From: Nitrospira sp.
Lineage (GTDB): Bacteria; Nitrospirota; Nitrospiria; Nitrospirales; Nitrospiraceae
Assembly (NCBI GenBank): GCA_024998565.1
Contig: JACOEM010000011.1
Location: 62,001-126,000, forward strand
Direction of reading: 5' to 3'
Length of the DNA: 64,000 bases
Made by a program: the position numbers and the translations under genes. The notes under the pieces were generated by a model. It ran no database searches. It saw nothing but the letters and a program-made list of their open reading frames with translations, and was not told the DNA's origin. This document shows positions 44,709-57,429 of the stretch, in pieces. Within the stretch, counting starts at the first letter, position 1, and every line of letters begins with the position of its first letter.

Positions 44709-45794
44709 ATGTTGCACCGATTGGCATTACGAGTCCTTCCAAGTTTGACGCTGGCTGTCACCGAAGATTCGGTTCGCACAAGAAAGCGCCTGGTGATGTT
44801 TGTCCCGGGGCTGGTGGCGTTTGCGGTGTACCGGGCGGCGAAGCATGGCATGTCGCTGGCAGAGCCGGTCACGCTGCTGATCCTGAGTGGCCTGGTGTCC
44901 CTGGTGACGGCGATATGCGCCTATCGTGTCGGTCGAGCGGTGCCGTTTGCACGACTGATGAGCATGGATGGCGCCAGACGTATCGGATGGATTCTCGCCT
45001 GGATCGGTTTTGTCTACGGAGTGCAGTTGTCGCTGCTCGTGCTGGCGCTGCTCTGGCTGGTGGGCTATGACTATGCCAAGCATCCGGATGGTCCGGCCAT
45101 GATGGCGATGATTATTCCCAGTACGGCCGTCGCGCGCGATGCATTTGAGATCGGGTATGTGCGATGGCTTGAAGCCAGCGGGCGGCCGTTCGTCACGTTT
45201 CCTGACGGCGCGGGACTTCGTGCGTTGCTGGCGCGAGTGAGTCCGGCACTGGCTGGGTGGGTGGCGGCGGGAGTCGTCGGCTGTGTGGGGCTCTCGATGT
45301 TCCTAGCGGCGGTCGTCGGCGGAGAGCTGGCCGTGTTGGCGCAAGGCGCTGTCGTGACGATGGCGGCGGGAACAGTTGGTCTCCTGGCGTTTTTCGCCGG
45401 GCAGGGGAACGGGACAGCCTGGATGGCCGGATTGACCGCGACTCGATGGGGTGAATTGGTGAAGTTTTGGTGGTGGCCCGGGTTGGCCTTTGCCTCGACC
45501 TACTATCTGGTGTTGGTCGGCGGTTGTCTGTATGTGTTGAAACAGCCGATGAGTTCCCCCGGACTCTTCGCTGGCGTCGCCGGCCTCGTCGGTGGCGTGA
45601 TGGCGCTGTACTGCTATTACCTGGGACATCGGCGGGAGATTGAAAATCGTCAGCCTGGAGGAGTGCCCAGCGCCTTGTTGCGCTGCCCATTCGTCATGGG
45701 CATTCTCGGCAAGTCCCGTGAAGCCATTGCTGGTACGGCATTGACTGGGTCTGCGGCTGTCTTCGAGAAGAATAGCCAGAGAGCGTCGTCATGA
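44709..45794 (+). CDS. Polytopic membrane protein of unknown function
   Basis: About 361 residues with seven to eight hydrophobic segments and few polar loops; no family is recognised. It ends four bases into the start of the first bd-like oxidase (45791), so the two are translationally coupled and it may be a subunit or assembly factor. The start ATG at 44709 has no clear ribosome-binding site; TTG at 44688 is the other choice. Confidence 0.7.
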   Translation: MLHRLALRVLPSLTLAVTEDSVRTRKRLVMFVPGLVAFAVYRAAKHGMSLAEPVTLLILSGLVSLVTAICAYRVGRAVPFARLMSMDGARRIGWILAWIGFVYGVQLSLLVLALLWLVGYDYAKHPDGPAMMAMIIPSTAVARDAFEIGYVRWLEASGRPFVTFPDGAGLRALLARVSPALAGWVAAGVVGCVGLSMFLAAVVGGELAVLAQGAVVTMAAGTVGLLAFFAGQGNGTAWMAGLTATRWGELVKFWWWPGLAFASTYYLVLVGGCLYVLKQPMSSPGLFAGVAGLVGGVMALYCYYLGHRREIENRQPGGVPSALLRCPFVMGILGKSREAIAGTALTGSAAVFEKNSQRASS

Positions 45795-47656
45795 TCAAAC
45801 GCCTTCCGCTTCCGTCCGTGATTCTGTTGCTGTGTGGGTTGCTGGTGGCCGCGAGTGTGCTGCTGCTGAATCCACCATTGCTGGTGGCCGCCGACCCCTC
45901 CGCAGATGTCTATTTCCATACGCCGGGGGTTCCGGACGGTCCCTCGGCGCCGACGGCGAATGAGAACCATTACCCACAAGTCGGGTCGCTCGATAGCCGG
46001 TTGCTGATGTGGTTTATCATTCAGCAGCATACGTACTTTGGTGGTTTCGTCTTGGCCCTGCCGATCTTTTGCGTCCTCTTGGAATTCCTGGGGCTGGTGG
46101 CGAGGAATCCCGCGATGGCTGTGCGTTATGACGGGTTGGCGCAAGATCTGTTGAAGGTGGCGCTGCTTGCACTGTCCGTGACCGCGGCGGTCGGGAGCGT
46201 GATGCTGACGATGTTTATCACGCTCTATCCCAGCTTCATGCAGTACATGGGCGGCACCTTTAAAGTCATGATGCCCCTCTATGCGCTAGTGTTTGTCGGG
46301 ACGACGTTTCTGACGATCGCGTACTACTACAGTTGGGATCGGATGGCAGCGCCGGGATCGAAGTGGGTCCATCTGTCGATCGGTGTGCTGGCGGTGGTGT
46401 TCGGCACGTCGTTGCTGTTGTTGGCCAATGCCTGGTCGGCCTTCATGATGGCGCCGTCCGGCGTCGACGGGCAGGGGCGGTATTTGGGGAATCCCTGGCA
46501 TCTGCTTCGCTCTGCACTCTGGAATCCATTGAACTTGCATCGATTCCTCGCGGACATCATGTCGGGTGGCGCGGTGGTCCTGGCCTACGCCTGTTATCGG
46601 TTCTTTTCCGGGAAGAGCCAGGAGGAGCGGGCCTACTACGACTGGGTTGGCTACGTGTTTTTGTTTGTGACGGTCTGCGCATTGCTGCCGATGCCGTTCG
46701 CCGGCTATTGGTTGATGCGTTCCGTCTATGCGTACAGTCAGAGCATGGGTGTCACGATGATGGGCGGGTTGCTGACCTGGCTCTTCGTGGTGCAGGCGTT
46801 GTTGATCGGCGCTCTCTTTCTCGGGGTGAATTACTATCTGTGGCAGAGTATGGGGCGGATTCGTGGTGGAGAGCGTTATCAGCCCTACTATCAATATTTG
46901 CTGCTCGCCCTGACGGGTTGTCTGTTTATCTGGTTGACGCCGCACACGATTCTGATGACCGGGACGGAAGTCAAAGCCATGGGCGGGGCACAGCATCCCG
47001 TAATTGGAAACTACGGTGTCATGTCGTCGAAGAACGGGGCGGTCAATGTGATGATCTGCATCACTGCGTTGAGTTACATCTTTTATCGACGCGCAAATCG
47101 AACGATGACGATCTCATGGGCCAAAGCAGGAAACGTCATTCTGGGGGCTCTGTTCGGCCTCGGAACCGCGCACATCATCGGCCTATCGGTCTATGGATTC
47201 TATCTTCCCGCCAGTCTCCGCGTCGGGCTGTCGGGTCCACAGGCCGTCACCACGTTACTCGTAGTCACACTGGGCTTGCTGTTGAACCGGCGTATGTTGC
47301 GCGGTGCCACGATTCACGGTCCTGTGCAATGGGGGCAGATTTCGGTTCGCGGCATGGTGGGCTTGTTCGGGTTGGCGGCGGCGTTTACCTGGGTGATGGG
47401 GTTGATGGGGTATATCCGCTCTTCCGGCCGGTTGGCCTGGCATGTCAATGAGTTGATGCCGGATACGTCGCCGTGGGCGTTTACGCCATCGCTCGGGTTC
47501 GCTGCCAAAATGGTCACGATCAATATGGCCTTGTTTTGGGGGGCGGTATTTTTCCTGTTCTGGGTCTGTCAGCGCGGACAGCAGCCGGTGATGCATGAGG
47601 ATGTGAGTGCGGAGAAGGAGGCAGGCTTTCTGCCGTCTCCGTCTCATGAGGGCTAA
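45791..47656 (+). CDS. bd-like oxidase, divergent paralogue
   Basis: A 621-residue membrane protein with about 14 spans, of the Nitrospira 'bd-like oxidase' family (CydA-like N-terminal half). Compared with the copy at 51186 it keeps the histidines in QQH, KWVHLS, 'NPLNLHR', 'TPHTI', 'AQHPV' and 'AWHVNE', but loses two: H182 there is Pro162 here, and H260 there is Arg240. If those residues bind a metal, the active site differs. The N-terminal signal-like span is followed by a short periplasmic segment. It overlaps the preceding gene by 4 bp. Confidence 0.85.
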   Translation: MIKRLPLPSVILLLCGLLVAASVLLLNPPLLVAADPSADVYFHTPGVPDGPSAPTANENHYPQVGSLDSRLLMWFIIQQHTYFGGFVLALPIFCVLLEFLGLVARNPAMAVRYDGLAQDLLKVALLALSVTAAVGSVMLTMFITLYPSFMQYMGGTFKVMMPLYALVFVGTTFLTIAYYYSWDRMAAPGSKWVHLSIGVLAVVFGTSLLLLANAWSAFMMAPSGVDGQGRYLGNPWHLLRSALWNPLNLHRFLADIMSGGAVVLAYACYRFFSGKSQEERAYYDWVGYVFLFVTVCALLPMPFAGYWLMRSVYAYSQSMGVTMMGGLLTWLFVVQALLIGALFLGVNYYLWQSMGRIRGGERYQPYYQYLLLALTGCLFIWLTPHTILMTGTEVKAMGGAQHPVIGNYGVMSSKNGAVNVMICITALSYIFYRRANRTMTISWAKAGNVILGALFGLGTAHIIGLSVYGFYLPASLRVGLSGPQAVTTLLVVTLGLLLNRRMLRGATIHGPVQWGQISVRGMVGLFGLAAAFTWVMGLMGYIRSSGRLAWHVNELMPDTSPWAFTPSLGFAAKMVTINMALFWGAVFFLFWVCQRGQQPVMHEDVSAEKEAGFLPSPSHEG

Positions 47657-48793: not shown

Positions 48794-49708
48794 ATGGAAA
48801 ATAGGGGTGTGCTGATCGGGTCGATCATCTTTGTGTTCGGGTCGTTTATTTTGATGATTGGCGGGCTGGTCTACGAATCCTATAAGGCGAAGCAGTTGCG
48901 CCAGCAGGTGCTTTCGATCACCACGGAGGTCAAGCCGGTTGCCGCGGCCGCCGCGCAGGACTTCTCGATGTATAAGACGCTTGTCGGCGATGACGGACGT
49001 GAGATGGTGCAAGTGTCTGAAGGGCCGTTTGTGATGGGCAGTCGAGATAACGATAGTGATCCGGATGAAAAGCCTGAGCATCAGGTCTACTTGAAATCGT
49101 ATTTCCTGGACAGGCACGAGGTCACGCAGGATGCCTATGATCGTTTCGCCAAGATGACGAAGCGAATCAAGCGGAAGATCGAAGTGTTTGAAGAGGACCC
49201 TGCCAAATTGTTGAAGCCGGAATATCCGATGATCGCCGTGACATGGGACGATGCCGAGGCCTATTGCAAATGGGCCGGCAAGCGGCTGCCGACGGAAGCG
49301 GAGTGGGAGAAGGCCGCTCGTGGAGAGGGGAAGCGCCGCTATGCCTGGGGTGAGGAGTTTATGGTGGGCTACGCGAACATCGATGGCAATGAGGATGGGT
49401 TTCGTTACCTTGCCCCGCCCGGGTCGTTCGAGTCTGGCCGCAGTCCCTACGGAATCTACGATATGACGGGCAACGTCGGTGAATGGGTCGCGGATTTTTA
49501 TGACGAAAATTCGTATCGGGGTTCTCCGTATCGTGATCCGAAGGGGCCTGACCAGGGCGAGCAACGGGTTATCCGCGGCGGTTCCTGGCGGGAGACCAAA
49601 CGAAACGTGCGTGCGTCCAAGCGATTCCAGGCAAAGCCGTGGCGGCATGACATAACGGTCGGCTTTCGCTGCGCGAAAGACATCGAGGCTGATGTGGTCG
49701 TTAAGTAG
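48794..49708 (+). CDS. Membrane-anchored SUMF1/FGE-domain protein 1
   Basis: A 304-residue protein with one N-terminal span (about 8-28) and a formylglycine-generating-enzyme-type domain (about 70-300): 'PFVMGS', 'RHEVTQDAYDRF', 'AVTWDDAEAYCKWAGKRLPTEAEWEKAARG', 'YDMTGNVGEWV' and 'RVIRGGSW...VGFRCA'. The domain faces the periplasm. No sulfatase substrate gene lies nearby, so it is probably a binding/assembly protein or modifies another target. A paralogue follows at 49720. Confidence 0.88.
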   Translation: MENRGVLIGSIIFVFGSFILMIGGLVYESYKAKQLRQQVLSITTEVKPVAAAAAQDFSMYKTLVGDDGREMVQVSEGPFVMGSRDNDSDPDEKPEHQVYLKSYFLDRHEVTQDAYDRFAKMTKRIKRKIEVFEEDPAKLLKPEYPMIAVTWDDAEAYCKWAGKRLPTEAEWEKAARGEGKRRYAWGEEFMVGYANIDGNEDGFRYLAPPGSFESGRSPYGIYDMTGNVGEWVADFYDENSYRGSPYRDPKGPDQGEQRVIRGGSWRETKRNVRASKRFQAKPWRHDITVGFRCAKDIEADVVVK

Positions 49709-49719
49709 TCGGTTGCATC

Positions 49720-50673
49720 ATGCTCGAAACGCGATTCAAAGTGATCTTTCTTCTGGTGGTGTTGTTTGCCGCCAGCTTGCCCATCATAGCAATTCTTCGC
49801 GGGACGATATCCACCCCGTTCGAAGCTGAGCCTCAATCGGCCGAGCAGGATCAGAGCGCCTCCAATCCTGAGTCGGCCTCCGTTGAAGAACCCCTTGAAG
49901 AAGAACTCGTTGTGATTCCTGCGGGGCCGTTTGTGCTCGGGACCAACCGGGGCGGGTTCGACGAGCAGCCTGAGCGGACGATTTACCTCGACCAGTTTCT
50001 GATTGATCGTTACGAGGTGACTAATGCGCAATATGCCGCGTTTGTGAAGGCAACGGGACATCGAAAGTCAGGACCGCCCTCACGGTATGCGAAAAATACG
50101 CTGCGCATGCGAGGTGTGAATCAGCCTGCGGTCTATGTCTCCTGGGAGGATGCCAAAGCTTATTGTGAGTGGCGTGGAAGGCGGCTGCCTTCTGAGGCGG
50201 AGTGGGAAAAGGCCATGCGTGGGCCGGATGGTCGCCTGTGGCCATGGGGAAACGTGGAAGTGCCGAATGCGGCGAATTGGGCTCGCGTAGACGACGGGTT
50301 TGACGTGGCGGCGCCGGTGGGGCGGGTGAAGAGTGACGCCAGTCCCTATGGTGTAATGGACGGCGCGGGCAATGTGATGGAATGGGTGAACGATTGGTAC
50401 CTTGAGGGGGCCTATGCCGCAGCTTCGGAGCGCAATCCGGAAAGTCCTGAATACGGGACCTACAAGGTGCTGCGCGGGGCTGCGTATACCAGTTCGGGAT
50501 CTGATTTACGCATTACCGCGCGCAGCAAGATGATGCAGGATTTTCGGGATGAAACAATCGGCTTTCGTTGCGCTCAATCCAGTGCGGAAAATGGCCGGTT
50601 GTCTGGAGGCGTGGGGGCGGAGAAAATCACAGGAAATCGAAGTAGTAGAGGATCAGAAACACGGCCAAAATGA
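49720..50673 (+). CDS. Membrane-anchored SUMF1/FGE-domain protein 2
   Basis: A 317-residue paralogue of the preceding protein with an N-terminal span (about 6-27), a Glu/Ser-rich linker and an FGE-type domain ('RYEVTNAQYAAFVKATGH', 'SWEDAKAYCEWRGRRLPSEAEWEKAMRG', 'MDGAGNVMEWVND', 'RITARSKMM...IGFRCAQ'). The last 47 bases are overlapped, on the other strand, by the small membrane-protein gene at 50627. It precedes the second bd-like oxidase locus. Confidence 0.87.
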   Translation: MLETRFKVIFLLVVLFAASLPIIAILRGTISTPFEAEPQSAEQDQSASNPESASVEEPLEEELVVIPAGPFVLGTNRGGFDEQPERTIYLDQFLIDRYEVTNAQYAAFVKATGHRKSGPPSRYAKNTLRMRGVNQPAVYVSWEDAKAYCEWRGRRLPSEAEWEKAMRGPDGRLWPWGNVEVPNAANWARVDDGFDVAAPVGRVKSDASPYGVMDGAGNVMEWVNDWYLEGAYAAASERNPESPEYGTYKVLRGAAYTSSGSDLRITARSKMMQDFRDETIGFRCAQSSAENGRLSGGVGAEKITGNRSSRGSETRPK

Positions 50674-50731
50674 TATTGACAACCATTCCAGCCAAAACTA
50701 TAATGTCGAACACTTTTGAATTTTTAGCCAT
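50627..50731 (-). CDS. 34-residue single-span micro-protein (antisense, overlaps SUMF1 gene end)
   Basis: An ATG at 50731 with AAAGGGA six bases upstream opens a 35-codon frame ending in TGA at 50627. The product has a basic start (MAKNSKVF), one hydrophobic span of about 20 residues and the end YYFDFL. This is the shape of small oxidase subunits such as CydX/CcoQ-type peptides. It is divergent from the two micro-protein genes at 50833 and 51000 and shares their promoter region. Its tail overlaps the SUMF1 gene by 47 bp. No family match is claimed. Confidence 0.6.
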   Translation of the reverse strand: MAKNSKVFDIIVLAGMVVNIILAVFLILYYFDFL

Positions 50732-50766
50732 AAAAATCCCTTTAAAAATCATGTGCGTGAGGGATT

Positions 50767-50801
50767 TTGATTAACACAGCGTAGTTGGTGTGTCAATTCA
50801 A
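50767..50801. promoter_or_regulatory. Imperfect dyad in the shared promoter region of the micro-protein genes
   Basis: TTGATTAACACA and TGTGTCAATTCAA face each other across ten bases, with one mismatch and one extra base. It sits between the divergent starts at 50731 (minus) and 50833 (plus), so it could be an operator controlling both. It lacks the exact half-sites of an FNR/CRP box. Confidence 0.4.
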
Positions 50802-50832
50802 AATACGTACTTAAACCGTTGGGAGAATCAAG

Positions 50833-50949
50833 ATGGAAGCTGCTCAGGATGACGTCCAAGTTAAGATCGGAAAAATGATTTTCTACATCACCCTGGCAGT
50901 GAGTCTTTGGTTTTTTTACTGGTTCGGCGGGATTCAGTGCCCTTGCTGA
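50833..50949 (+). CDS. 38-residue single-span micro-protein
   Basis: ATG at 50833 with GGGAG eight bases upstream, ending in TGA at 50947-50949. The product has an acidic start (MEAAQDDVQVKIGKM), one hydrophobic span (about 15-34) rich in Phe/Trp, and the C-terminal end 'GGIQCPC' with two cysteines. It is the first gene upstream of the bd-like oxidase on its strand, so it may be a small subunit of that enzyme (inference). Confidence 0.75.
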   Translation: MEAAQDDVQVKIGKMIFYITLAVSLWFFYWFGGIQCPC

Positions 50950-50999
50950 TCCGGTATTCTGGCCTGGGAAATCGTTTATCAAGTTGAGGGGGGTTTGAG

Positions 51000-51122
51000 A
51001 TGGGCCAAACAATTGTGTATGTCGTCGTATCCGTGCTGATCTGCGTCTCGTTTTTTGCAGCGGTTGATCATTTTCTGATGGATGCGCAGGGTTTGGACTT
51101 TTGGTATCTCCTTCGAAAGTAA
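51000..51122 (+). CDS. 40-residue single-span micro-protein
   Basis: ATG at 51000 with a GAGGGGGG purine run upstream, ending TAA at 51120-51122. The product is MGQTIVYVVV..., one hydrophobic span (about 4-22) and a polar end '...DFWYLLRK'. It lies 50 bp after the 38-residue gene and 63 bp before the bd-like oxidase, and is not in any longer open frame. It probably belongs to the same operon. Confidence 0.75.
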   Translation: MGQTIVYVVVSVLICVSFFAAVDHFLMDAQGLDFWYLLRK

Positions 51123-51185: not shown

Positions 51186-53105
51186 ATGGGCTCTGTAACC
51201 CGCACGAAGTTGATGTCGATCATGGCGCTAGGCGCAATGATCGGCCTCCTCCTCTTGCCTATTCTGGTTGCGATCCCTGCCCTTGCTAGCGACGGTGGCG
51301 CTCCTGCTGCCGGCGTGAAGAAAGAGGGTGGTGACGCAAAGGTTGAGAAGGGTAAGGACGTTTATTACAAGACGGAAGGTATTGTCTCGGGCCCGCCAGC
51401 TCCTAAGACAACGGACAGCGAGAAGGACTATCCGCGATACAACTTCGAGAGTCGCGTCCTGCTCTGGTTTGCCAATCAGCAGCACCTTTACTATGGTAGC
51501 TTCGTCTTGGCTGTTCCCATTTTCTGTATGGTCATCGAATTTATGGGTGTGGTGACCAAGGATAAGGCGATGGCCAAGCGGTATGACCAGCTGGCGTACG
51601 ACTTTATTAAGATCAGTTTGACGGCCTACTCTCTGACGGCCATTCTGGGCGGTATTCTGATCTTCACCTTCCTGACTCTCTATCCAGCCTTCTTCCAGTA
51701 TCTCTCGGGTATCTTTAGGCCGGTCATGCATATTTATGCATTGATGTTCGTGGCCGAAAGCGGAACCCTCTACATTTACTACTATGGCTGGGACAAGATG
51801 AAGGAGGGGTTCCTGAAATGGATTCACCTCAGCATGTCCGTCGTCCTGAACGTCATCGGCACCATCTTGATGTTCCTGGCGAATTCATGGATCGGCTTCA
51901 TGATGTCTCCTGCCGGCGTTGATGAGCAGGGCCGGTATCTGGGTAACATTTGGCACGTGATCCACACCGCATTGTGGAACCCGCTCAATCTCCATCGCAT
52001 TCTCGGTAATATGGCCTTCGGTGGTGGTGTCGTGGCGGCCTATGCGGCCTACCGTTTCTTGTCTGCTAAGACCGATGAGGAGCGTGCTCACTACGACTGG
52101 ATGGGTTATATCGCGATGGCTCTCGGTGTGGCGTTCCTGATTCCGTTGCCATTCGCCGGCTACTGGTTGATGCGCGAAGTCTATGCATATCGTCAGCAGA
52201 TGGGTATTACCTTGATGGGCGGTCTGCTGGCTTGGCTGTTTATCATTCAGGCCACCATGATCGGAATTCTGTTCCTGAGTACGAATTACTATCTCTGGCA
52301 AGCTCTCGGACGGATGCGTGGTGCGGAAAAGTATCAGCGCTACATCAAGTATCTCGTATTCCTGCTTACATGCGGATATCTGGTGTTTATTACGCCGCAC
52401 ACCATCGTCATGACTCCAGCCGAGTTGAAGGCAATGGGTGGTCAGCAGCATCCAGTGCTGGGTAACTATGGCGTGATGTCGGCCAAAAACGGTGGAATCA
52501 ACGTCATCATCACGACCACGGTCTTGAGCTTCGTGTGGTACATGCGAGGCAACAAGGTGTCCACGGTATCGTGGTCGAAGTTCGGCAATATCTTCATGGG
52601 CTGCTTTTTCTTCTTTGCGTACCTCAACATCATTATGTTGGCTGTGTATGGCTACTACATTCCGGCGAACGTACGAGTCGGGTTGTCCGTTCCGCAGGTG
52701 GCTACCACGCTGTCGTGCCTGTTCTTCATGTTCGCACTTAACAGCGTCATGATGAAGGGTGCCAAGCAGATGGGACCGATTGAGTGGGGCAAGATTTCTG
52801 CTCGCTCTCAATATGCGCTCATCATGTTGGCCACGGCCTTCACGTGGATGATGGGTCTGATGGGATACATCCGATCCTCCGTCCGCTTGTTCTGGCACGT
52901 CAACGAAATCATGCGTGACAATTCACCATGGGCGTATACCCACACGGTGGGTTTTGCCGCGAACATGATTTCTGCGAACGTACTGTTCTTCTGGATTTCA
53001 ATTATGTTCGTGTTTTGGTTGGGAGCCCTTGGTGCCAAGAAGGCGCCAGTCGAGGCGAAGGCAGCCGTGCCTGGTCGGGCGGCTGCGCCAGCGGTGGGTC
53101 ACTAG
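51186..53105 (+). CDS. bd-like oxidase (Nitrospira-type, candidate terminal oxidase)
   Basis: A 639-residue membrane protein with about 14 spans, CydA-like in the first half. Histidines available for haem or copper include those in QQHLYYG, H182 (VMHIYA), KWIHLS, H257 and H260 (WHVIH), H270 (NLHR), 'TPHTI', 'QQHPV' and 'FWHVNE'. Genome studies of Nitrospira suggested that such proteins are its terminal oxidase, in place of ordinary haem-copper oxidases. RBS AAGGAGG is strong. It is followed by three c-type cytochrome genes and preceded by two micro-protein genes, consistent with one complex. Confidence 0.88.
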   Translation: MGSVTRTKLMSIMALGAMIGLLLLPILVAIPALASDGGAPAAGVKKEGGDAKVEKGKDVYYKTEGIVSGPPAPKTTDSEKDYPRYNFESRVLLWFANQQHLYYGSFVLAVPIFCMVIEFMGVVTKDKAMAKRYDQLAYDFIKISLTAYSLTAILGGILIFTFLTLYPAFFQYLSGIFRPVMHIYALMFVAESGTLYIYYYGWDKMKEGFLKWIHLSMSVVLNVIGTILMFLANSWIGFMMSPAGVDEQGRYLGNIWHVIHTALWNPLNLHRILGNMAFGGGVVAAYAAYRFLSAKTDEERAHYDWMGYIAMALGVAFLIPLPFAGYWLMREVYAYRQQMGITLMGGLLAWLFIIQATMIGILFLSTNYYLWQALGRMRGAEKYQRYIKYLVFLLTCGYLVFITPHTIVMTPAELKAMGGQQHPVLGNYGVMSAKNGGINVIITTTVLSFVWYMRGNKVSTVSWSKFGNIFMGCFFFFAYLNIIMLAVYGYYIPANVRVGLSVPQVATTLSCLFFMFALNSVMMKGAKQMGPIEWGKISARSQYALIMLATAFTWMMGLMGYIRSSVRLFWHVNEIMRDNSPWAYTHTVGFAANMISANVLFFWISIMFVFWLGALGAKKAPVEAKAAVPGRAAAPAVGH

Positions 53106-53191: not shown

Positions 53192-54511
53192 GTGATTGAA
53201 CTCATTAAAGCGGCCTTAGCGATGGGCTGGCCAGCATTAGGCATCCTGGTTGGCCTAATGTTTTATTTCAAGGCCTCCATTTCAGACCCAGTTGCCAACA
53301 AGCGTGCGGTGTTCAAGACGTTCATCGGCATCATTGGCGCGATGCTACTTTTTATGGCAATCGCCAATTACAAGATGAACTTCTTCGAAGAGTCACGGCT
53401 CTTGCCGGTGTCTCTGGTTCTCATTACATCGATGACGTTCATGATGGCGCTGTATTTCACGAACATCAGCGCCTTGCTGAAAATCGGCGGCTTCATGTTT
53501 TTCATCGCCGCAGCACTTTCCGGTTACGGTAACTGGTTGCCCCAGGTGGAAGGTGGATTTCCGCCCATCGAAGAAAAGAAAGACTTCAGCAACATGCCCC
53601 AGACGGAGCTCGCTGACGAAGGCGAGAAGATTATCTTTGGCGGCGTTGGTCAGAACAAGGTTCAGGGGGCGATCGGTAAGGGACAGTGTCCGCTCTGCCA
53701 TGCTTTCCATAAAGGAATGTTGGGAGAGCGTGCGCCAAACCTCGACGGGTTGCCGGAGCGCGCGGGAACGCAGATCGACGATCCTCGTTATCATAAGGGA
53801 AATGCTGCAGCTCGTGATTCAGACCAGAAGGAAGCATTTCCTGGATCTGGAACCGCAGAGAATGGCCAAGAATACATTGCCGAGTCCCATGCCTGTCCGA
53901 GCTGTTTCGTGGTGGCTGGTTACGGTGTGAAGGGTACCAATGATAAAGTCAGCCCTATGCCGTCCATCCATAAGCCGCCGATCTCTTTGTCCTTGCCCGA
54001 GTTAGCGGCTGTCGACACCTGGCTGTATGTGCGTGAAGGGCGTGAGGCTCCGAGCTTTGATGAAATTGTGAAGTCCTATGAAAAGTTCATCCCGGATTCT
54101 GAGCGTCCAAAGCCGCCAACAGAGGGCGACAAGGCCGCCGGCGGGGGTGCATCCGCGCTCATGGCTGACGGGACTGAGCCTGTCGATCAGATTTTTGCGA
54201 AGGGACAATGTGTGGCATGCCATACGATCCCTGGTATCGCTGGAGCGACCGGCACGATTGGTCCGAAGCTGGTCGAGGGAACAAATGCTCCGCTACGCAT
54301 TAAAGACAAGGATTATAAGGGAAAGGCGAAGAGCGTCCCTGACTACATAATGGAATCCATTGTTGAGCCTAGCGCTTACGTTGTGAAAGGCTTCCCTGAC
54401 AATACCATGCCTAAGGTGTTCGGTCAGAAGCTTAGCGCCGGCGCGCTCAAGAAACTTGTAGATTACCTCTCGCAGGTGCAGGAAGGGAAAGAGCCACCCA
54501 AGGCCTCCTAG
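53192..54511 (+). CDS. Membrane-anchored dihaem c-type cytochrome
   Basis: A 439-residue protein with three or four N-terminal spans (to about residue 110) and a periplasmic part with two CxxCH haem sites, C166-H170 and C340-H344. A third cysteine pair, CPSCF near 235, lacks the haem His. The start is GTG at 53192, behind the RBS AGGAGG held in a palindrome. It directly follows the bd-like oxidase and probably feeds it electrons. Confidence 0.88.
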   Translation: MIELIKAALAMGWPALGILVGLMFYFKASISDPVANKRAVFKTFIGIIGAMLLFMAIANYKMNFFEESRLLPVSLVLITSMTFMMALYFTNISALLKIGGFMFFIAAALSGYGNWLPQVEGGFPPIEEKKDFSNMPQTELADEGEKIIFGGVGQNKVQGAIGKGQCPLCHAFHKGMLGERAPNLDGLPERAGTQIDDPRYHKGNAAARDSDQKEAFPGSGTAENGQEYIAESHACPSCFVVAGYGVKGTNDKVSPMPSIHKPPISLSLPELAAVDTWLYVREGREAPSFDEIVKSYEKFIPDSERPKPPTEGDKAAGGGASALMADGTEPVDQIFAKGQCVACHTIPGIAGATGTIGPKLVEGTNAPLRIKDKDYKGKAKSVPDYIMESIVEPSAYVVKGFPDNTMPKVFGQKLSAGALKKLVDYLSQVQEGKEPPKAS

Positions 54512-54559
54512 TTGCGATGGGTATCTGGTTGCTATTGCGGAAGAAAGGGAGATGAGGAC

Positions 54560-55597
54560 ATGAAAGCATTAATGTCAGTCGGGGCATTGATCGGCGTCCT
54601 GGGACTGCTCATGTTGATCGGCATGATCTTCGGAGTGATTCCCTCGAACACCGTCAGGCTCGTTGAGGGCTACATGCCCATGCAGGTCCTAAGTGAGCTA
54701 GCCGTATTCGTGGCTGGCTTCACCGGCCTGAGTTATCTAGCCAACTCGATGGGAATTGCTTTCCCTCGGTTTTGGCAGGGTGTGTTGTTTTGGGCCTTTA
54801 TCCAAACCTATCTCAAGTTCCGTATCTATCCGCCGATTCCGTTCAGCGTTCGTGCCATGTACGGAACCGTATCGTTCGTAGCCGTGTTCATGTGGGTGTC
54901 GGCCAATGAAGAGGATTGGAAGAAATTCCGTCAGCCGATTCTCAATGTTTTGGATGCCAACACCGGCTTCCATAAGGCACTACGCACGATGTATCTGATT
55001 CTTCTTCCGCTACTCATTGGCGGCTTCTCTTTCTTGACGATGAAGCCGAGTGTCGATGAGCCGATTGAGTTGCGGACCGTGCATCCTGCACCACCAGCAA
55101 GCACGAAGGTGCATGGCAAGACTTACACCCTCCAGACTTCTCAGAATCCTTACCGGGTCAATCTTGAAGGTAAGTACGATCAAGCCTATAGCAATAAGCT
55201 GATCGTGGAGCAAGGCATGGGACGACTGATGGCTCCCAACGCCAACCCATGGGATGACAAAGCTGAAGGATACCTGAAGTACGTTCGGGAAGGTGGCGAA
55301 ATATTCTTCCAGAATTGTCACTTCTGTCACGGCGACAATCTGAACGGTCGTGGTCTCCATGCCTTTGCGTTCAACCCGATTCCTGCTAACTTCACAGATC
55401 CAGGAACGATTGCGCAGTTGCAGGAAACCTTCATTTTCTGGCGGGTAGCGAAGGGCGGAATCGGTTTGCCGAACGAAGGATTCCCTTGGGCCTCGGTTAT
55501 GCCACCATGGGAACAGCACCTGACCACAGATGAAATTTGGAAGGTGATCCTGTTCGAATACTGGCACACGGGATACTATCCTCGGACATGGGACTAA
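54560..55597 (+). CDS. Membrane-anchored monohaem c-type cytochrome
   Basis: A 345-residue protein with about four or five N-terminal spans (residues 5-165) and a C-terminal cytochrome c domain with CHFCH at 253-257 and a likely Met ligand in 'ASVMPPWE'. GGGAG at about 54547-54551 is eight bases before ATG 54560, so the longer frame from 54512 is not used. It lies 48 bp after the dihaem cytochrome gene and 47 bp before the next cytochrome. Confidence 0.88.
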   Translation: MKALMSVGALIGVLGLLMLIGMIFGVIPSNTVRLVEGYMPMQVLSELAVFVAGFTGLSYLANSMGIAFPRFWQGVLFWAFIQTYLKFRIYPPIPFSVRAMYGTVSFVAVFMWVSANEEDWKKFRQPILNVLDANTGFHKALRTMYLILLPLLIGGFSFLTMKPSVDEPIELRTVHPAPPASTKVHGKTYTLQTSQNPYRVNLEGKYDQAYSNKLIVEQGMGRLMAPNANPWDDKAEGYLKYVREGGEIFFQNCHFCHGDNLNGRGLHAFAFNPIPANFTDPGTIAQLQETFIFWRVAKGGIGLPNEGFPWASVMPPWEQHLTTDEIWKVILFEYWHTGYYPRTWD

Positions 55598-55644
55598 TCC
55601 TGAATCTTACAAACAACCTGGGAGAACAGGTGGTGAGGTTAACA

Positions 55645-57429
55645 ATGAGCAAACTTCGTATGAACGTAAAGGCGACCCCGATTATCGGAGCGGCCTTAGG
55701 TGCCCTCATCCTCTCTGCAAGTGCGGTGGGATTGGGTCATGCTGGAGATCTTCCGGAAGGCTTTGCCAAGGGTGAATTGGCCCCGGCTCCGCCCGCCGAG
55801 ATGATCGAAGCCGGAAAGCGTGTCTATTTCACCAAGTGTGTCTGGTGTCATGGTGTGGACGGTGCGGGCGACGGGCCAGGTGCTGATCGTTTGTGGCCAC
55901 GTCCGCGTAACTTCAATCAGGGTACCTTCAAAATTCGCCATACGGCGAGTGGAGAGTTGCCGCTCTTCAATTACAACGAGAAGACTCCTGATTCCGGCAA
56001 GAATGACCTGTTCGACACCGTCACGCACGGTCTTCCTGGCTCGGCCATGCCACCCTGGGAAGGTATCTTGACCGAGGAGCAGCGTATCCAGGTTCTGTCC
56101 TTCGTCACAACGCAGCTGGTTAAGGATAGAAAATTTACCGACAAACAGTCTGAGACGCAGACGATCCTCCAGCTCGGAACTATTAAACCTGCTGAGGCGA
56201 CCGAGGACAGTATCAAGAAGGGCGCTCAGTTGATCGTGGACAAGAAGTGCATCGAGTGCCATGGTGTTGAAGGGCGTGGAGACGGAAACGCTTTCAATCT
56301 GAAAGATGATTGGGGGTTTTCGATTCAGCCGGCCAACTGGCACAAGTGCTGGAATTTCCGAGGAAGCCGGCAAGACCCTTACAACGTACGAAACATTTTC
56401 CGTACCTTCTCCACGGGTGTCAACGGAACGCCGATGCCGTCCTTTGCGGATAGCACGTCGGTCGAAGATCGCTGGAACATTGCGAACTTCGTGAACTCGT
56501 TGTGCGAACGCGATGAAGAGGGCAAGCCCCTGGGTATCGATCCTTTGACCGATAAGCCGAAGATCAACTTCGTTGTGCCTTCTGCGCCGGTCGAGGGTGA
56601 GATTTCAAACGACCCAGAAAATGAGATGTGGAAGAAGCAGGGCCGTCGTTATGTGGCGATGGGCGGTCAGATCACTCACAAACCTCGTAACTTCGTCAAT
56701 CGTATCGATGATATCTGGGTTAAATCACTGTACAACGACAAGAACGTGGTGTACCTGATCCAGTGGGATGACCGGACGAAGAGTGTCGCCGAGGGGAAAC
56801 TTCCTTGGGCGCCCACTCAAGTCAATGTCGAGAACTTTGGTGTGAAGGAGCAGGCACCTAAGACCGGAGAAGAAGGTTCAATTGCTGCAGCTCAGAACAA
56901 CTACGCCGTTTATAACGATGGTATTGCATTCCAATTCCCCATCAAGTGGCAGGAGATTCCTGCTCCGTTTAAGCCACGATATTTGTGGGGTGATGCGAAG
57001 TTCAACGCCGACATCTTGAAGTGGGAGGCGGATGGTTCCCTCCGGTCCTTCAAGGGAACCGGTTGGGATCAGGACTTCGAGGAACGCGATGACTTCGAAG
57101 AAAAAGTTAAGTTGTTAAAGTCAGAGTGGAAGAACGGACAGTGGACTGTCATGATCTCCCGTCCGCTTAAGGGCGACAAGGATGATTATGATGAGTACAC
57201 CCGGTTTGACATCGGTAAGTACATTCCGATGGTCTTCTTTGCCTGGGACGGACACAACGGGGATGCGGGACGGAAGATGGCCGTGTCGGCCTTCTATTAC
57301 ACAATCTTGCAGCCTCCGATTCCGCAGGAAGTGTACATTTACCCGGCCGTTATCGCAGTTGGCGTGGTGTTTTTGGAAGGGTGGATGCTGACCCGCCGGG
57401 CCAACAAGAAAAAGGGCAAGGTCCTCTAA
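55645..57429 (+). CDS. Dihaem cytochrome c with ethylbenzene-dehydrogenase/NXR-gamma-like haem-b domain
   Basis: A 594-residue protein: signal sequence (to about 33), two cytochrome c sites (CVWCH 65-69 and CIECH 202-206), then an EB_dh-type domain (about 340-555) like the gamma subunit of ethylbenzene dehydrogenase and nitrite oxidoreductase, which holds haem b between Met and Lys, and a C-terminal span (about 567-583). Fusion of this domain to cytochrome c in one chain is noteworthy. ATG 55645 is set by GGTGAGG upstream. A terminator follows, so it ends the cytochrome operon. Confidence 0.87.
   Translation: MSKLRMNVKATPIIGAALGALILSASAVGLGHAGDLPEGFAKGELAPAPPAEMIEAGKRVYFTKCVWCHGVDGAGDGPGADRLWPRPRNFNQGTFKIRHTASGELPLFNYNEKTPDSGKNDLFDTVTHGLPGSAMPPWEGILTEEQRIQVLSFVTTQLVKDRKFTDKQSETQTILQLGTIKPAEATEDSIKKGAQLIVDKKCIECHGVEGRGDGNAFNLKDDWGFSIQPANWHKCWNFRGSRQDPYNVRNIFRTFSTGVNGTPMPSFADSTSVEDRWNIANFVNSLCERDEEGKPLGIDPLTDKPKINFVVPSAPVEGEISNDPENEMWKKQGRRYVAMGGQITHKPRNFVNRIDDIWVKSLYNDKNVVYLIQWDDRTKSVAEGKLPWAPTQVNVENFGVKEQAPKTGEEGSIAAAQNNYAVYNDGIAFQFPIKWQEIPAPFKPRYLWGDAKFNADILKWEADGSLRSFKGTGWDQDFEERDDFEEKVKLLKSEWKNGQWTVMISRPLKGDKDDYDEYTRFDIGKYIPMVFFAWDGHNGDAGRKMAVSAFYYTILQPPIPQEVYIYPAVIAVGVVFLEGWMLTRRANKKKGKVL

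Follow-up and report, generated by a model that had tools for sequence, protein, structure and literature searches.

We have identified three linked genes for microproteins, each with a single hydrophobic span, upstream of a cytochrome bd-like oxidase gene in a 64,000-nucleotide stretch of a Nitrospira sp. genome (contig JACOEM010000011.1, positions 62,001 to 126,000 of the forward strand; hereafter the window, with coordinates counted from its first nucleotide). The genes, designated A, B and C, are real genes under protein-level selection, and the trio belongs to one oxidase locus, that of the gene designated OX2. Their products are probably small single-span accessory subunits of OX2, which in Nitrospira is a putative cytochrome c oxidase. 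Oxidase subunits that are small and have a single span are already known as a kind; what appears to be new is that this oxidase has three such families, none with known relatives, together with a promoter-like site kept inside one of the genes. The features under study are listed here.

50627..50731, minus strand: gene A, 34-amino-acid single-span microprotein (MAKNSKVFDIIVLAGMVVNIILAVFLILYYFDFL); frame in place, start conserved
50833..50949, plus strand: gene B, 38-amino-acid single-span microprotein with a Cys-Pro-Cys C-terminus; first gene of a likely oxidase operon
51000..51122, plus strand: gene C, 40-amino-acid single-span microprotein with a conserved Q-G-L-D tail (profile A3)
50676..50704, plus strand: promoter-like site TTGACA-N17-TATAAT, antisense within gene A and directed towards B-C-OX2
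50768..50796, minus strand: probable promoter of gene A, consisting of TTGACA (50796-50791), N17 and TAATCA (50773-50768)
51186..53105, plus strand: OX2, bd-like oxidase subunit of 639 amino acids, putative cytochrome c oxidase, bd-like_2/Nide0901 type

The original prediction, made from the sequence alone, had placed three frames (34 amino acids on the minus strand, 38 and 40 on the plus strand) ahead of the oxidase gene, and all three lie exactly where it put them. Their peptides were searched with tblastn in loci from named genomes, of which the best 80 of 434 matching loci, being the closest ones (OX2 identity 88-99%), were kept. A was found in 74 of the 80, and B and C in 76 each. B and C were missed in four loci (L021, L068, L073, L080) whose DNA begins at base 3-47 of the oxidase match, and A additionally in two (L061, L071) whose contigs end 400-520 bases before that match. 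Given enough DNA, none of the 80 loci lacks any of the three, and gene order and orientation are the same. In Nitrospira moscoviensis (L039; NZ_CP011801.1), calculated coordinates put A at approximately 3444367-3444471, B at 3444127-3444249 and C at 3443937-3444059. The prediction stood or fell with the conservation of these frames in related genomes; every Nitrospira locus that extends far enough keeps them, and relatives from the same class and beyond have diverged forms that go with the same oxidase.

Recurrence of this kind is exceptional for short frames at the locus. As a control, 88 open reading frames (ORFs) of 30-60 amino acids between 43300 and 57500 of the window were compared with the 46 loci of at most 92% oxidase identity, recurrence being defined as at least 80% coverage, at least 50% identity and no stop codon. 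Only A, B and C recurred in all 46. The runner-up, at 46126-46221 on the minus strand, is antisense within OX1, a paralogous bd-like gene; it is open and similar in 44 of the 46 loci and is probably a by-product of conserved sense codons.

Substitution patterns in the three frames are those of proteins. Third codon positions account for 20265 of 29651 pairwise differences in A, 33314 of 45717 in B and 56983 of 104781 in C. Gene A has a ratio of nonsynonymous to synonymous substitution rates (dN/dS) of 0.084 (74 loci). The proportion of nonsynonymous differences (pN) is 0.076 in gene B (68 loci) against a saturated synonymous proportion (pS) of 0.770, and 0.198 in gene C (76 loci) against a saturated pS of 0.749; because of this saturation no dN/dS is given for B and C, and gapped or unevenly aligned loci were left out. 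A purine-rich ribosome-binding site and one hydrophobic span had been claimed for each frame, and both claims hold. A purine-rich, Shine-Dalgarno (SD)-like 5-mer from a permissive list lies at most 20 nucleotides upstream of A in 63/74 loci, of B in 72/76 and of C in 75/76, and start codons are swapped between loci while the SD mostly stays. The best 19-residue Kyte-Doolittle mean is 3.1 for A, 1.7 for B and 2.6 for C, with one hydrophobic span in each. A longer, 41-amino-acid version of A (ATG at 50752) was rejected because this ATG is missing in several loci and the 34-amino-acid start is conserved. Imperfect copies were seen in L044, where B lacks a standard start and the frame of C changes at its end, and in L085, where C enters unknown bases.

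The trio goes with OX2 and not with the other bd-like oxidases fetched. The 4.13-Mb source genome of the window has four bd-like genes and yields a single match each for A, B and C. At E < 0.5 and within limited flanks, none of the three was found beside any of eight second copies of OX2-like genes (L126-L133; 75-80% identical; eight genomes of the order), nor beside OX1 (L138, L153, L154) or the bd-like paralogs L145-L152 and L155-L164.

The reach of the trio was examined by searching 295 genomes of the phylum with profiles built from 18-20 sequences; order, class and phylum were taken as Nitrospirales, Nitrospiria and Nitrospirota. Among the 98 genomes of the window's order, A was found in 96, B in 94 and C in 93. 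Two of these genomes (G179, G268) have no orthologous oxidase among the matches listed, the best being at 43% and 52%, the level of paralogs, and in three others (G091, G254, G210) the oxidase or B gene lies at, or apparently at, a contig end. In the 15 genomes from other families of the class, A was found in 15, B in 14 and C in 13, with an OX2 identity of 60-67% in 14 of them. The locus fetched from G230 has no oxidase (B and C were not found there), and that from G262 has 100 unknown bases between B and OX2. At the class and phylum levels, B and C were assigned partly by position and by eye, as were B of L123 and A of L141 by eye, and several sequences assigned by eye entered the extended profiles, so that the E-values of those rows are circular. 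The rows outside the extended profile are L103, L118, L120, L122, L124, L139-L142 and L144 for B, and L103, L119, L120, L121, L139-L142 and L144 for C.

Deeper relatives with OX2-like genes of 50-53% identity retain B and C before the oxidase in all five loci with upstream DNA (L139-L142, L144); two further deep loci, L137 (the same place as L134) and L143, end before B at contig ends. In four of the five (L139-L142), an A-like frame on the same strand precedes B-C-OX2, identified by profile in L140 (E 0.014) and L142 (E 0.0079), by motif search in L139 and by eye in L141. The strongest case for counting A with B and C comes from this one-strand order of A, B, C, OX2 and cytochrome c. The extended C profile also matches B weakly (L135:1064-1207, E 0.0013; L136:1085-1207, E 0.0045), which may reflect either a distant paralogy of the two genes or just a shared composition.

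A point absent from the original prediction is a probable consensus promoter for B, C and the oxidase on the opposite strand of A. A promoter scan returned a 12/12 match to TTGACA-N17-TATAAT at 50676-50704. The same scan of shuffled sequences gave 0.8 sites per region at the lower threshold of 9/12, which makes a site count alone meaningless, and the weight of the site therefore comes from its perfection and conservation. It is identical in 74/74 loci and 12/12 in 7/7 further loci of the order (L109-L113, L135, L136). Requiring A2 and T6 in the second hexamer leaves it as the only site of at least 11/12 in the window. Perfect sites with a spacing of 16-18 number exactly 74 across the 80 loci (1,256,266 bases): every A-bearing locus has one, and the remaining six loci have none. 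Genome-wide, four perfect N17 sites occur, and a reversed control pattern has none; the others are at G000:C1:182321-182349, C4:256561-256589 and C5:185619-185647.

The hexamers, of the sigma-70 form TTGACA/16-18/TATAAT, are under selection. Over 74 loci, the A codons beneath them (10, 11, 17 and 18) have zero synonymous-choice entropy. For the remaining 28 A codons tested the mean is 0.72 bits, with codons 6, 12 and 13 likewise at zero; over the final 24 codons, B has a mean of 1.19 bits and C one of 1.18 bits. The frozen codons include ATA, which OX2 uses for none of its 47 isoleucines, and in L112 valine 17 of A is replaced by threonine with the hexamer intact. A conserved antisense promoter-like site would thus account for the frozen synonymous sites of A.

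In class relatives there is no 12/12 site within A (best mostly 7-9/12, with 10 in L118), and an 11/12 site in L102 lies a good distance upstream of the conserved portion of the A frame. A site of 10-12/12 is present upstream of B in all 12 class relatives tested (L100-L102, L104, L115-L122). Upstream of A in the deep loci, an 11/12 site is found in L140 and at best 9 in L142. The notion that A is merely promoter DNA was rejected, as class relatives keep the A protein with no 12/12 site in it. For A itself, a minus-strand TTGACA in the A-B gap is present in 73/74 loci (absent in L059), followed by a second hexamer that is TA-rich but a weak match; judged from its sequence, this element is the probable promoter of A. 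With a promoter of A in the gap, the leader of the B-C-OX2 transcript (110-183 nucleotides) would be antisense to the start of A, and activity of these promoters could entail interference between the A and B-C-OX2 transcripts. Conserved intergenic blocks are also present near the trio.

OX2 itself is a subunit I of the cytochrome bd superfamily, as judged from a CydA fold together with a match to Pfam Cyt_bd_oxida_I (E 5.4e-20). Its AlphaFold2 model, made with 37 sequences, has a mean predicted local distance difference test score (pLDDT) of 81.8 and a predicted template modeling score (pTM) of 0.80, and Foldseek ranked CydA-type Protein Data Bank (PDB) chains first with probability 1.00. The root-mean-square deviations are large (10-21 Å) and the template modeling scores by query are 0.36-0.43, which agrees with a report that bd-like oxidases have additional helices (PMC3578206). 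The surroundings of the trio are as follows.

45791..47656, plus strand: OX1, paralogous bd-like subunit with 54% identity to OX2
49720..50673, plus strand: FGE-sulfatase-domain gene, convergent with A (Pfam FGE-sulfatase, E 7.2e-55)
53192..54511, plus strand: cytochrome c gene 1, downstream of OX2 in the same run (Pfam Cytochrom_C)
54512..55597, plus strand: cytochrome c gene 2, start codon uncertain (Pfam Cytochrome_CBB3)
55537..57429, plus strand: cytochrome c/ethylbenzene-dehydrogenase-like gene, probably alt_nxrC_1, start uncertain (Pfam EB_dh, Cytochrom_C)

OX1, a DUF3047 gene and two FGE-sulfatase-domain genes lie 5' of the trio; the nearer FGE-sulfatase gene and gene A overlap by 47 bases at their 3' ends. 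Cytochrome c gene 1 adjoins OX2 in diverged loci as well. A similar arrangement in PMC6606698 carries the names bd-like_1, bd-like_2 (putative complex IV) and alt_nxrC_1, and by comparison with it the gene at 55537..57429 is probably alt_nxrC_1. By gene neighborhood rather than by a tree, OX2 is most likely bd-like_2 of the Nide0901 type. Neighborhood and literature likewise make it most likely the OR-N2 subunit of the OR-N type CydAA' oxidase of Nitrospirales, of which OX1 may be the partner, OR-N1 (PMC6606698, PMC12342949). The parts of these two articles that were consulted describe no small subunits for that oxidase; three candidates are presented here.

The small subunits of cytochrome bd are the obvious comparison. 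CydX, AppX and CydS are single-span subunits on which assembly, stability and activity are reported to depend critically; CydH/CydY, whose gene lies outside the cyd operon, blocks an oxygen entry site (PMC8951039). A, B and C share with the former their small size (one membrane span; approximately 30-45 amino acids for CydX/YbgT) and a gene that adjoins one of CydA type; they differ in being three genes rather than one and in having a partner of the Nitrospira bd-like type. The CydX gene follows its oxidase gene, whereas A, B and C precede theirs. With CydH/CydY of E. coli bd-I, encoded apart from the cyd operon, gene A has in common that it is transcribed apart from B-C-OX2; unlike it, A is linked to the oxidase locus, and the sequences, compared only through Pfam and the PDB, give no significant match. 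Small single-span subunits such as CcoQ/FixQ are also found in cytochrome c (heme-copper) oxidases. No Pfam family of this kind was matched, however, and OX2 is bd-like rather than a heme-copper oxidase.

Indeed, searches of Pfam and PDB sequences up to E 10 and of NCBIfam up to E 1 gave no significant match for A, B or C. Pfam returned only Syndecan (0.051) and Peptidase_M50 (0.085) below the cut-off, both for A, and NCBIfam, far below it, SecDF for A (0.43), bfi_fam for B (0.041) and nothing for C. The best PDB E-values were 0.057 (A profile), 0.023 (B) and 0.51 (C), the match for A, which is not significant, covering 19 residues in the membrane span of a protein of the cytochrome c family (6f0k). 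Membership in CydX/YbgT was rejected: the CydX motif, YxxWxxGx15E/D (PMC4325964), occurs in 0/29 distinct A, 0/68 B and 0/55 C sequences, even with a spacer of 13-17. The original prediction had likened the frames to CydX; the analogy is apt for how they would work and fails as kinship, the motif being absent and no known small-subunit family matching. A, B and C most likely work like CydX and CydH, by analogy and outside any shown membership of those families.

We hold with moderate confidence that A, B and C are accessory subunits of OX2, a role to which their position, size and conservation point. The earlier proposal of small subunits of a respiratory complex is upheld as regards conserved linkage to OX2, and we infer that the peptides are translated, physically associate with OX2 and take part in the complex, and that the genes are arranged in an operon as follows. 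B and C would be the first genes of a B-C-OX2-cytochrome c operon. Each of A, B and C would pack as one helix on the OX2 helical bundle, or on an OX1-OX2 pair, and the packed helices would stabilize heme binding and assembly and help to determine how the active site is reached; CydX and CydH act in this way in E. coli cytochrome bd-I. Within the order to which the window belongs, the other strand of gene A would hold the consensus promoter of this operon, such that one stretch of DNA would both encode microprotein A and start the oxidase transcript.

The C-terminal tail of B invites a further suggestion. QCPC ends B in 76/76 Nitrospira loci, and the tail has a histidine in 11/14 class sequences and 6/6 deeper B-like sequences; in L116, L117 and L123 it has neither cysteine nor histidine. 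By the positive-inside rule, the lysines before the B span should leave the tail facing the periplasm. A metal role for the tail is a guess. A bolder model, which we regard as a long shot, has A, B and C as stoichiometric subunits of a bd-type cytochrome c oxidase, the outward tail of B as a metal ligand giving a copper or heme site for electrons from cytochrome c, and the operon fired from a consensus promoter antisense in another subunit's gene. If true, a 38-residue microprotein would let a bd-like enzyme take electrons from cytochrome c.

Several observations weigh against a subunit role for the trio. No known small-subunit family matches A, B or C. The second OX2-like copies are found without a neighboring trio, so the fold as such does not depend on it, unless the trio is shared. 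An OX2-like gene at 47% identity (L145) has neither the trio nor cytochromes c nearby, and A was not seen near the oxidase of L144. In the class, A is on the opposite strand and in some relatives approximately 2 kb from B, which ties it to OX2 more loosely than B and C. No site of at least 10/12 precedes B in four deep loci (L139, L141, L142, L144), and for assignments beyond the order the basis is in part weak E-values, gene position and inspection by eye. Second copies of B occur away from any recognized oxidase in four genomes (L105:3957-4148, L106:5677-5922, L107:6141-6338, L108:5957-6256); these copies are extended at the N-terminus and share the GIQCPC tail.

These points bear on what else the trio might be. 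As assembly or cofactor-insertion factors delivering heme or copper to OX2, the three proteins would be absent from the finished enzyme, and the cysteines or histidine of the B tail, in the proportions given above, would suit metal handling, as would second B copies distant from recognized oxidases. On the other hand, the chains are very short with hardly any soluble domain, A and C have no obvious metal-binding motif, three B tails (L116, L117, L123) have no cysteine or histidine, and a place before OX2 in the operon is equally typical of subunits; we consider this role unlikely, though deserving of some weight. Membership in a larger assembly of OX1, OX2, cytochromes c, FGE-domain proteins and complex III, and not in OX2 itself, seems to us quite improbable. 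OX1, two FGE-domain genes, cytochromes c and the probable alt_nxrC do stand in one block, a complex III-IV supercomplex has been proposed at such a locus (PMC6606698), which fits this assembly, and A follows FGE genes as well as OX2 (e.g., L125). Yet class relatives keep B and C by OX2, with OX1 not seen there and the FGE genes shifting place.

That the frames are not protein genes, and are instead leader peptides or by-products of conserved regulatory DNA, could be argued from the strongly conserved promoter-like site within A and from the conserved intergenic blocks. This is largely refuted by the excess of third-position differences and the low pN that each of the frames shows, by start codons that are swapped with the SD mostly kept, and by class relatives in which the A protein persists with no 12/12 site in it, leaving it a very slim chance. 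Type I toxins can be single-span hydrophobic peptides, and so the trio could in principle be small hydrophobic toxins or unrelated membrane peptides present by accident. The trio has long stayed linked to a single respiratory locus and is under strong purifying selection, which disfavors this reading, and we give it next to no credence.

Read as subunits of OX2, the three microproteins would add to an enzyme that, although proposed as the main terminal oxidase of Nitrospira, is still called putative (PMC6606698, PMC12342949, PMC10579370). No description of A, B and C was found in the literature on the Nitrospira bd-like oxidase or on small proteins, among the matches listed by a search that left most subscription papers outside. 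Nitrospira, comammox included, are major nitrifiers, and the linked microproteins constitute a concrete parts list for purification, modeling and heterologous expression of OX2; expression and purification may fail if A, B and C are omitted. The site in A is, for its part, a clean natural case of one stretch kept both for a protein and for a consensus promoter on the other strand.

Two further observations concern the neighborhood. An FGE-sulfatase gene is found close to A and B in many relatives, and pairs of such genes (window 48794-50673; L103:1952-6315) remain within the oxidase block; in the deep locus L103, the pair adjoins a frame that by eye resembles cytochrome b. This suggests that the FGE-sulfatase-domain genes are part of the respiratory complex. 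In one family of the class, the A-B gap (L100:2814-3602, L101:6911-7710) holds several small single-span frames, e.g., FFYAVYVLFYTGAVFMAGIFIGQ, which share a pattern and look mutually related.

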